NCBI GenBank assembly: GCA_947589285.1
Contig: CANPZV010000003.1
Span: 1-64,000, forward strand
From: an uncultured Clostridia bacterium
Lineage (GTDB): Bacteria > Bacillota > Clostridia > Christensenellales > Borkfalkiaceae
DNA: 64,000 bases
Reading direction: 5' to 3'
The translations under genes were made by a program, and so were the position numbers. Below, one piece after another: positions 20,647 to 46,087 of the stretch (position 1 is the first letter of the stretch; every line of letters begins with the position of its first letter). The notes under the pieces were generated by a model. It had not been told where the DNA came from, ran no database searches, and worked only from the letters and a program-made list of their open reading frames with translations.

Positions 20647-20782
20647 GTATCTTCAATTACCCGACTATTATATCCCTATCCATGCGATTTGTCAACGATT
20701 TTTGCGGCTCCTTCAAAGATTTTTTCGCCGCTTTCGTGAAAGCACATTGCGTCCTTTCCCTCGATGATCCCAATCGCCCTTT

Positions 20783-20837
20783 TTCGGCGTTTTTCGACAA
20801 AATCAGACCTTTTTCTGCCCTCTGCGCCCTTTATAAT
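20783..20837 (+). promoter_or_regulatory. spoIIGA promoter with tandem Spo0A boxes
   Basis: TTCGGCG (20783-20789, one mismatch) and TTCGACA (20793-20799, perfect) are 0A boxes spaced exactly 10 bases apart; a further near match, TTCGCCG, lies at 20724. A TATAAT (20832-20837) lies 33 bases downstream with no good -35, as in the B. subtilis spoIIG promoter, which is SigA-dependent and activated by phosphorylated Spo0A. The spoIIGA start follows 18 bases after the -10. Confidence 0.7.
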
Positions 20838-20855: not shown

Positions 20856-21692
20856 ATGGAAGTCTATGTGGAATATGCCTTTGCGGAAAATTTCATCCTC
20901 GACCTTCTCCTTATATTCCTCTCCGTAAAGTGTGCGCGGGCGGAGAGCGGCGCGTTCCGTCTCCCCCTCTCCGCGGCGGTGGGTGCAGCCGAAGCCGTCG
21001 CCTTTCCCCTCCTCCCCCTGCCCGTCTGGGCGGCCTATCTCGTCAAGTTCTTCGGCGGAGCCATTCTCCCCGTCCTTGCCGTGAAAAAGGGGACAAAAAA
21101 GACGTATTTCGTGGCCCTTGTCTCCTTTTTCGGCCTGACCTTCGCCCTCGGGGGGCTGCTGACGGCCGCCTATTCTTTCTTCAACGCGCCCTATGCGGAG
21201 GGGAACGGGTATCTCGTGGAGGCGGCTCCCGTCGGGCTTGTCTTGGGGCTTGCGGGGCTGTTCGGCGTCGCGGTGTTCTACCTCTCCCGCAGTCTCTACC
21301 GATACAGAAAACTCAAACGGTGTCTCTTTGCGGCGGAGCTGAGCAGCGGCGGCAGGACGGTGCATTGCAAGGCCTTGGCGGACACGGGGAACTGTCTCTC
21401 CTTCCGCGGCCGCCCCGTGAACGTCATCGCCCCGACGGCCGCCCTCGCCCTCTTCCGCGAAGAAAGATCTCCCCTCGGCAGGATCGCCCTCTCGACCGTG
21501 AGCGGGACGCGGGAAGCTCCCGTCTTTGCCTGCCGCCTCAAACTCGGCGACGCCCTCTTTGAGGAAGCCCTCTTTGCCGTGGGCGACGTCCTTTCCAAGG
21601 AATATCAGATCGTCCTGCATACATCCTATCTGGAGGAAAACCATGAAGCTCCTGAAAGCTCTGCAAAACTTGTTGCGGAAGATAAAAGGTGA
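20856..21692 (+). CDS. spoIIGA: Sigma-E processing peptidase SpoIIGA
   Basis: A 278-residue membrane aspartic protease that removes the pro-peptide of SigE in the mother cell once signalled by SpoIIR. The N-terminal half has about five hydrophobic segments (residues 8-150). The C-terminal domain carries D176-T-G178 in [10 protein letters not shown], the single catalytic motif of this family, followed by the RPVNVI segment. The ATG at 20856 (CGGAG upstream) gives the usual length. Its last 50 bases overlap sigE, the canonical spoIIG arrangement. Confidence 0.94.
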
Positions 21693-22350
21693 GAACGTCG
21701 TCCACTATCTGTGCGGGAGCGAGGCACTGCCCCTCCCCCTCTCGCAGGAGGAGGAGAGCGAAATGCTCGCAAAGCTCGAGAGCGGAACGGACGCCGAGCA
21801 GGTCCGCGCAAGTCTCATCGAACACAACCTGCGCCTCGTCGTATACATCTCCCGCAAGTTCGAAAACACGGGCGTGGAGGCCGACGACCTCATCTCTATC
21901 GGGACGATCGGTCTCATCAAGGCCATCAACTCCTTCCGCACGGACAAGAACATCAAACTCGCGACGTATGCCTCGCGCTGTATCGAGAACGAGATCCTGA
22001 TGTATCTGCGCCGCACGGTGAAACTAAAGAGCGAGATCTCCTTCGACGAACCCCTCAACACCGATTTCGAGGGGAATGAACTGCTCCTCTCCGACGTCCT
22101 CGGCACGGACAGCGACACCGTTTACGGGGGCGTGGAGTCGAGCGTCGAGAAGGAACTCCTCAAAGAGGCCCTGATGAAGCTCCCCGACAGGGAGAGGAAG
22201 ATCATGTACATGCGGTTCGGCCTCGGCGGGCAGGAGGAGATGACGCAGAAGGACGTGGCCGACGCGCTCGGCATCTCGCAGAGCTACATCTCCCGCCTCG
22301 AAAAGAAGATCATCGAGCGGCTGAAAAAGGAGATCTCCAAACTCGTATAA
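21643..22350 (+). CDS. sigE: Sporulation sigma factor SigE precursor
   Basis: A 235-residue sigma-70 family factor controlling early mother-cell genes. The first about 22 residues form the basic, amphipathic pro-peptide removed by SpoIIGA; the conserved [15 protein letters not shown] context marks the cleavage region. Region 2 ([33 protein letters not shown]) and region 4 ([21 protein letters not shown]) follow. TGGAGG lies 6 bases before the ATG, inside spoIIGA. The sigG gene follows after a 74-base gap. Confidence 0.95.
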
Positions 22351-22424
22351 TTTTTTCGGGAAATACAGATACTTTTGTCTCCGAACGGTCTACATAGGGA
22401 CTGAGGTCCTTACGGAGGTGAAAG

Positions 22425-23198
22425 ATGTTAAGTAAAGTCGTGATCTGCGGCGTCGATACGACGGGTCTGCCCAAGCTCTCCGCAAAGGAGATGAGCGAGC
22501 TGATGATCCAGCTCAAGGCGGGCGACGAGGCCGCGCGGGAGAAGTTCATCATCGGGAATATGCGCCTTGTCCTCTCCCTCGTCAAACGGTTCTGGGCGAA
22601 GAATGCCAACGCCGACGACGTGTTTCAGGCGGGCTGCGTGGGGCTGATCAAGGCCATCGACAACTTCAATTTGGATTTCAACGTGAAGTTCTCCACCTAC
22701 GCCGTCCCCATGATCCTCGGCGAGATCAAGCGGTACCTGCGGGACGGGAATTCTCTCCGCGTCTCCCGCTCCATCCGTGATACGGCCTACCGCATCCTCA
22801 AAGTCAGGGAGAGCATCGAGGAGCGGGACGAGGAGGCCACGATCGAGAAGATCGCCGCCGAAATGCAGGTGAAGGAGAGTGAGGTCGTCTACGCGCTCGA
22901 CGCCATCTCCGATCCCGTCTCCCTCTATGAGCCGATCTACAACAAGTCGGGCGACACGCTCGAGCTTTTGGACCAGCTCTATGACGAGACGCAGAGCGAC
23001 GAGATCTGGACGGAGCATGTCGCCCTGCGCGAGGCCATCAACCGCCTGACAGACAGGGAGAAAAAGATCCTCATGCTCCGCTACTACGAGGGCAAGACGC
23101 AGACGGAGATCTCTGCGGAGGTCGGTATCTCGCAGGCGCAGGTCTCCCGCCTCGAAAAGAACGCCCTCGCGTCGGTCAGGAAGGAGATCTCGCTGTAA
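22425..23198 (+). CDS. sigG: Sporulation sigma factor SigG
   Basis: A 257-residue late forespore sigma factor. The family-specific N-terminus (SKVVICGVDTTGLPKLS) precedes region 2 (NMRLVLSLVKRFWAKNANADDVFQAGCVGLIKAIDNF), region 3 and region 4 (QTEISAEVGISQAQVSRLEKNA). A strong site ACGGAGGTGAAAG precedes the ATG. Order spoIIGA-sigE-sigG is the standard Firmicute cluster. I could not identify a convincing SigF or SigG promoter in the 74-base gap, so read-through from spoIIGA is possible. Confidence 0.95.
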   Translation: MLSKVVICGVDTTGLPKLSAKEMSELMIQLKAGDEAAREKFIIGNMRLVLSLVKRFWAKNANADDVFQAGCVGLIKAIDNFNLDFNVKFSTYAVPMILGEIKRYLRDGNSLRVSRSIRDTAYRILKVRESIEERDEEATIEKIAAEMQVKESEVVYALDAISDPVSLYEPIYNKSGDTLELLDQLYDETQSDEIWTEHVALREAINRLTDREKKILMLRYYEGKTQTEISAEVGISQAQVSRLEKNALASVRKEISL

Positions 23199-24772: not shown

Positions 24773-24888
24773 TTATCCACAGAACGATGGCTTCTGTGGA
24801 TAACTTTTTTTGATTCTTTGTCGAAAAATGTCGAACGAACATTCGGAATGTGGAAATCAACAGAGTTTTTCACATGAATTGTGGATAA
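24773..24888. other. Cluster of DnaA boxes with tandem Spo0A boxes (candidate replication-control site)
   Basis: Within 116 bases of the gap between the convergent HxlR and TetR genes: perfect DnaA boxes (TTATCCACA) at 24773-24781 (+), 24795-24803 (-) and 24880-24888 (-), and a one-mismatch box TTTTTCACA at 24866-24874. Two perfect 0A boxes TGTCGAA start at 24819 and 24829, exactly 10 bases apart, the first in the ideal context TTTGTCGAAAAA. The first two DnaA boxes also form a 12-bp hairpin followed by eight T, so a terminator role is possible. The DNA downstream to 24930 is AT-rich. Confidence 0.6.
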
Positions 24889-43547: not shown

Positions 43548-44540
43548 TCAACGCTCGAGGACGACGGCGTGGGCGATGCAGGGAATGGACTCTCCCTGCC
43601 CCGAGGAGACCGTGGAAAGTAACGCTCCCGTCGCAACGAACAGGATCTTTTTCAGGCTCCCTGCCATCATCTTACTATATAAATAGGAATTGAGGACCAC
43701 CGCCGAACAGCCCGCGCCGCTCCCGCCCTGATACTCATCCTCGATGACGTTGTAGATGATCTCCCCGCAGTCCACATGGTTCTGATTGATGTTGAGGCCC
43801 TTTTCCCACGTCAGGTCCTTGAGAATACGGCTCCCGAGTGCGCCCAAGTCCCCCGTGACGATGAGATCGTAGTCCTCCGCCTCCTCGCGCGTGCCGCGGA
43901 AGTGGGCGAGAATGGTGTCCGCCGCCGCAGGGGCCATTGCCGCGCCCATGTTGTTGACGTCGGTGATGCCGAAATCGACGACTTTGCCGAGGGTCGCGGC
44001 CGTGATCTTCACCCCGTCGCCGCTGTCGGCAAGAAGCGCGCCGCCCGCGCCCGTGACCGTCCACTGCGACTGGGGCGGACGGGTACAGCCGAGTTCCAGG
44101 GGATAGCGGTACTGCCTTTCGGCCGAGGCGAAGTGGCTGCCCGTCGCCGCGACGACCCGCTTGCACAGGCCGCCGTTGATGAATGCCGCGCCCACGGCGA
44201 GCGATTCCGCCATCGTGGAACAGGCCCCGTACACGCCCAAAAACGGGACCGAGAAATCGCGGGCGGCGAAACTTGCCGAGATGATCTGGTTGAGGAGGTC
44301 GCCCGAGACGATGAGGTCGATCTCGTCGCGCTTGAAGCCGCCATTGGAGATCGCGCCGTCGATGACTGTAGAGAGCATCTTGCATTCCGCCTTCTCATAT
44401 GTGCTTTCGCCGAACATATCGTCCGCAAGGGCCGTCTCGACGTAGCGGCCGATGACCCCTTCGCACTCCTTCGGCCCCGCAATGGTGCTTGTCGCGACGA
44501 TGCGCGGCTGATTTTTGAAATAGATCGTCTGATTCCCCAT
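43548..44540 (-). CDS. spoVAD: Stage V sporulation protein AD
   Basis: A 330-residue thiolase-fold protein that binds dipicolinic acid in the SpoVA complex. Family features: QPRIVATSTIAGPKECEGV at the N-terminus, Cys107 in VYGACSTMAES, TRPPQSQWTVTGAGG, and NQNHVDCGEIIYN near the C-terminal third. The ATG at 44540 is preceded immediately by a T-run and a terminator-like hairpin whose 3' arm (GGGGA) is the only ribosome-binding candidate. spoVAC, usually upstream, is not here; a Wzz-like gene takes that place. Confidence 0.93.
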   Translation of the reverse strand: MGNQTIYFKNQPRIVATSTIAGPKECEGVIGRYVETALADDMFGESTYEKAECKMLSTVIDGAISNGGFKRDEIDLIVSGDLLNQIISASFAARDFSVPFLGVYGACSTMAESLAVGAAFINGGLCKRVVAATGSHFASAERQYRYPLELGCTRPPQSQWTVTGAGGALLADSGDGVKITAATLGKVVDFGITDVNNMGAAMAPAAADTILAHFRGTREEAEDYDLIVTGDLGALGSRILKDLTWEKGLNINQNHVDCGEIIYNVIEDEYQGGSGAGCSAVVLNSYLYSKMMAGSLKKILFVATGALLSTVSSGQGESIPCIAHAVVLER

Positions 44541-44574
44541 AAAAAATCCCCGATCACAGTGTCTGCAATCGGGG
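44541..44574 (-). terminator. Terminator between the Wzz-like gene and spoVAD, abutting the spoVAD start
   Basis: On the minus strand, CCCCGAT / ATCGGGG stem with a 13-base loop that can itself form CAG/CTG pairs, then ATTTTTT and directly the ATG of spoVAD. Its 3' arm supplies the GGGGA before the start. Confidence 0.8.
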
Positions 44575-44593
44575 AGAAAGTTATTCGGTATCT

Positions 44594-46026: not shown

Positions 46027-46087
46027 ATTATACGCACCGCAGAAAAAATGTCAAGCCAAATGCGACATATTTCGGCAAAATTCGACA
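46027..46087 (-). promoter_or_regulatory. Strong SigA promoter with three tandem Spo0A boxes for the Wzz-like gene
   Basis: On the minus strand TTGACA (46054-46049), 16-base spacer, TATAAT (46032-46027). Upstream are three TGNCGAA-type boxes in exact 10-base steps: TGTCGAA (46087-46081), TGCCGAA (46077-46071) and TGTCGCA (46067-46061, one mismatch), all in one orientation and ending 6 bases before the -35. Two are perfect to the Spo0A consensus. This suggests direct activation or repression by phosphorylated Spo0A. Confidence 0.75.

Follow-up and report, generated by a model that had tools for sequence, protein, structure and literature searches.

Positions 46027-46087 of the window, the 64,000-nucleotide stretch of DNA analysed here, probably hold an array of Spo0A-type regulatory sites, set at the sigma-A promoter from which a gene for a Wzz-like polysaccharide co-polymerase is expected to be transcribed on its own. 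On the minus strand, TGTCGAA-TTT-TGCCGAA-ATA-TGTCGCA (46087-46061) is followed by TTGACA-16-TATAAT (46054-46027), so that array and promoter can be written as one stretch, TTTGTCGAATTTTGCCGAAATATGTCGCATTTGGC leading into TTGACA-16-TATAAT. The three boxes are spaced in exact 10-bp steps, the promoter hexamers match the consensus at 12 of 12 positions, and the ATG of the gene lies 71 bases downstream of TATAAT (Table 1). The array carries the 0A core TGNCGAA with G2, C4 and G5, the bases of the box that are contacted by Spo0A (PMC3485338), and the mismatch of box 3 falls outside these contacts. The arrangement recorded in the initial annotation, of three phased TGNCGAA-type boxes, two of them perfect, before a near-consensus promoter, is therefore exact down to its coordinates, and Spo0A-type control is well supported as a binding-site prediction.

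Table 1. Features of the window, with the Spo0A loci of related genomes in the last row
Feature	Position	Strand	Remarks
spoVAD	43548..44540	(-)	separate transcription expected
Intrinsic terminator	44547..44575	(-)	13-pair stem and T run; its end is immediately ahead of the spoVAD ATG
Wzz-like (polysaccharide co-polymerase) gene, 453 aa	44594..45955	(-)	two predicted membrane helices flank a coiled coil
-10 hexamer TATAAT	46027..46032	(-)	16-bp spacer; kept in orthologues
-35 hexamer TTGACA	46049..46054	(-)	
0A box 3, TGTCGCA	46061..46067	(-)	one mismatch; G2, C4, G5 retained
0A box 2, TGCCGAA	46071..46077	(-)	perfect; aligned TTTGNCGAA invariant in all five orthologues
0A box 1, TGTCGAA	46081..46087	(-)	perfect; kept in G175
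Phased 0A-box array, spoIIGA promoter	20773..20799	(-)	reads away from spoIIGA
Spo0A loci of relatives	L036-L040, L169-L198, L203-L220		

Four orthologues of the gene (66, 64, 60 and 43% identical) were found in MAGs of uncultured Clostridia bacterium; a scan of named genomes for further ones returned only the same four, and five are thus known including the window gene. In 5/5 of them a perfect TTTGNCGAA precedes the -35 hexamer by 22-24 bp; it is retained even in the 43% identical orthologue of genome G153, whose gene neighbourhood is different. A second box, or its remnant, is found 10 bp beyond TTTGNCGAA in the orthologues, and counterparts of box 3 are degenerate and follow at the same 10-bp step; tandem phasing beside a sigma-A promoter is accordingly kept. 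Boxes 1 and 2 both occupy matching places in G175, and G186 and G177 have a single perfect box each, retained beside weaker -10 and -35 hexamers. Little else of the spacer has been conserved, other than between G186 and G177, which are close to each other; of the five arrays, that of this genome is preserved best.

The same syntax recurs at spoIIG, a classic Spo0A target. The window contains a spoIIGA-sigE-sigG group (20856-23198; so named from sequence resemblance), and one or more perfect boxes occur in 23 of the 26 genus spoIIG promoters examined, phased at 10 bp with weaker boxes and oriented away from the gene. The spoIIG array of G175, TGTCGAA-AAA-TGCCGAA-AAA-GGTCGTT, is nearly that of the Wzz-like gene promoter. 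Moreover, a perfect 0A box near -130 is seen in roughly one in two of the regions upstream of spo0A that were examined. Because of these spoIIG and spo0A boxes, the presence of the Spo0A_C domain and the recognition helix described below, it is very probable that TGNCGAA serves as a 0A box in this genus, and the original assignment of the sites to Spo0A is upheld both by this shared syntax and by conservation in the five orthologues.

Single TGNCGAA words are frequent (69 in the window, against 46 expected), so that one box alone means little. The triple pattern TGNCGAAN3TGNCGAAN3TGNCGNA, with up to 3 mismatches, occurs at 2 places in the 64-kb window against 0.27 expected; the array at 46087-46061 has 0 mismatches to it, a figure that alone overstates significance because the pattern was drawn up after the site had been seen. 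The sole other place is the spoIIGA promoter, a classic target of Spo0A, which was found without being sought and is a strong internal positive control. A genome-wide motif scan (1.29 Mb) gave 3 perfect tandem pairs and 0 for a reversed control pattern; across the 103 genomes of the genus the corresponding figures are 97 and 25, and the excess is raised artificially by sites within the coding sequence of a single HTH gene family (~13 of the 97). As background, a forward box 8-42 bp before a -35 hexamer was seen at 5 of 122 promoter-like sites drawn from loci chosen independently of the motif, and two of these five are spoIIG arrays read in reverse.

Other arrangements of 0A boxes were noted in passing. 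In three genus genomes (L041, L051, L076) tandem forward boxes stand right before the -35 of an xpt-like gene, in the layout seen here, and in G225, from whose assembly Spo0A_C is absent, a clpB-like gene (L096) is preceded by four perfect boxes at 10-bp intervals. In the window itself, the only three perfect DnaA boxes (24773-24888) lie around two perfect 0A boxes in tandem (24819-24835), in a region of which ~200 non-coding bases are near-identical in G232; the layout resembles an element of origin type that carries Spo0A sites, but the GC skew keeps its sign there.

The protein is modelled by AlphaFold2 (mean pLDDT 83) with a helix at residues 27-56, an extracytoplasmic helical domain and a helix at 405-435, that is, with the membrane helix - coiled coil - membrane helix arrangement of the PCP fold. 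Wzc, WzzE, KpsE and WzzB are among its first Foldseek matches, with E-values down to 2e-5 and low TM-scores (0.13-0.34). Whereas 14 of 30 homologues match the Pfam Wzz model PF02706 (E up to 0.1, best 2e-7), the window protein has no match to it above the cut-off, and sequence searches of Pfam or the PDB with the protein or its profile returned no Wzz match. Wzz-like is a fair name, judged by modelled fold and wider family, and the description of the product as chain-length-determinant-like is borne out by Foldseek and by PF02706 in the homologues; the protein may have a role in a surface or spore glycan. A polysaccharide locus finds no support, as the neighbours are tsaD, prfB-like, secA-like, spoVAD and spoVAE, with no glycan genes adjoining. 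Among distant Wzz-like homologues (L008-L032) the -35 hexamer is TTGACG in 18 of 22, compared with 4 of 58 other promoters, and seven of these TTGACG promoters read TTGACGAA, containing a perfect 0A box; a 0A core inside the -35 is a lead only, since these promoters are related by descent and have no consistent second phased box.

Downstream, the 13-pair terminator hairpin recurs in G186, G177 and G175, hence in four species in all (the G175 stretch that was folded had been cut inside the stem and gives no evidence against the terminator there). Since this terminator is conserved between the two genes, the Wzz-like gene is expected to be monocistronic and its adjacency to spoVAD to be without regulatory meaning; co-transcription with spoVAD is unlikely and was rejected, and the link to spoVAD that had been drawn from adjacency is left unsupported. 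Within 44540-44575 the hairpin covers part of the stretch where the ribosome-binding site of spoVAD should be, with the T run ending at the ATG, and an Rfam search of the region gave no match.

Several explanations compete with binding of the array by Spo0A. The frequency of single TGNCGAA words in the genome, and the many tandem pairs that lie within coding sequence in related genomes, would suit 0A-like words standing accidentally upstream of an ordinary promoter; this is highly improbable given that all five orthologues conserve the spacing between box and -35 and that the array is rare (2 places against 0.27 expected; background 5/122). A difficulty is that no Spo0A_C domain was found in the assembly of this genome (G000), formally the outcome that the initial annotation had named as refuting its reading; this assembly is, however, only 85.6% complete. 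The domain is present in 89 of the 103 genus genomes, among them that of the nearest relative, G232 (SpoIIGA 91% identical), and in 141/151 of the family. In G232, G177 and G175, spo0A forms a block with a 226-aa gene and a lipid-kinase-like gene. From in and around this block, the lipid-kinase-like gene and the adjoining U32 peptidase gene were sought in G000, with no orthologue found for either; the matches obtained were rejected as distant paralogues (28% and 38%), and a counterpart of G177's MurG-like spo0A neighbour is present, but in a different context. With the assembly incomplete, spo0A present in G232 and its neighbours missing too, an assembly gap is more likely than true loss. That spo0A was nevertheless lost in this species, the array being a decaying remnant from Spo0A-bearing ancestors, would agree with the joint absence of spo0A and the neighbours sought, as well as with the lack of spo0A in 5 of the 60 assemblies of good quality from this genus; it is improbable in view of the incompleteness of the assembly, the spo0A block of G232, the retention of spoIIGA-sigE-sigG, spoVAD, spoVAE and a perfect array, and the superior preservation of this array over those of the orthologues. 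The missing gene could also point to another regulator of TGNCGAA-like direct repeats, for instance one of OmpR type with 10-11 bp repeats, and several response-regulator families do bind phased direct repeats upstream of -35. Considering the exact 0A core including G2, C4 and G5, the identical syntax at the known Spo0A target spoIIG within the genus, and the fact that most of the genus has a Spo0A, such a regulator is a distinctly improbable occupant of the array.

We infer, then, that this species has a Spo0A and that it binds here. It would occupy the two perfect boxes and the weaker third next to one another along a single face of the helix, with a footprint directly upstream of -35, at roughly -41 to -67 relative to the predicted start; boxes at this distance beside -35 take the place of an activator, and transcription would change as cells enter the Spo0A programme. 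The effect is presumably positive, activation through contact with sigma-A being more likely than repression. Were Spo0A instead to bind and shut down vegetative assembly of surface polysaccharide at the onset of sporulation, this would fit a promoter that, matching the consensus throughout, should need no activator and could be strong even without Spo0A, as well as a box orientation opposite to that at spoIIG. In the genus, spoIIG boxes face away from the gene and the -35 is weak, whereas the boxes of the Wzz-like gene face it upstream of a full -35, and the mode of action may therefore differ. However, the boxes lie upstream of -35 and not over the promoter, and in G186 and G177 the box is retained beside weaker hexamers, as expected for an activator; repression is thus rather unlikely.

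The Spo0A proteins of relatives have a DNA-recognition helix like that of the solved Spo0A domain, combined with an altered receiver. In the 32 own-genus receivers aligned with the relevant column, Ser replaces the phospho-accepting Asp in all 32, and G232 likewise has Ser at this position; the acidic pair is changed and the Lys retained. The Asp, mark of classical phosphorylation-activated Spo0A, is hence absent from the genus receivers aligned, as read from relatives' sequences; across the family, 5 of the 18 genera compared retain it (one genome per genus). The reference receiver row of the alignment is consistent with the PDB alignment. A search of the open-access literature found no report of a Spo0A without phospho-acceptor. 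Since the receiver is without this Asp, Spo0A control of the Wzz-like gene, if real, would probably bypass normal phosphorylation. More tentatively, this gut Clostridia lineage may possess a Spo0A regulon in which a co-polymerase gene for surface polysaccharide is under direct control and whose Spo0A cannot be phosphorylated in the usual manner, with sporulation and surface change set by another signal, such as the level of Spo0A or a ligand of the pseudo-receiver. If true, a sporulation trigger without Spo0A phosphorylation becomes a directly testable question across the genus.

The array shares the 7-bp TGNCGAA core, the 10-bp phasing and the adjoining sigma-A promoter with B. subtilis spoIIG and abrB and C. 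difficile spo0A and sigH (PMC3485338). Unlike at these known promoters, the target is a Wzz-like gene, the boxes are directed at that gene and precede a -35 of full consensus, and the regulator, as represented in relatives, has a degenerate receiver. With Wzz and other PCPs (PF02706; Wzc, WzzE and KpsE structures) the product shares a membrane helix, a long extracytoplasmic coiled-coil domain and a second membrane helix, but it differs from them in having neither a Pfam Wzz match nor glycan genes alongside. Finally, Spo0A is also linked to matrix genes in B. subtilis, where, according to PMC10134886, control is indirect, via SinI/SinR, whereas here the predicted sites lie at the gene itself. 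If the proposed control is real, Spo0A would directly set a surface-polysaccharide step in uncultured gut spore-formers, where B. subtilis uses intermediaries for its matrix genes.
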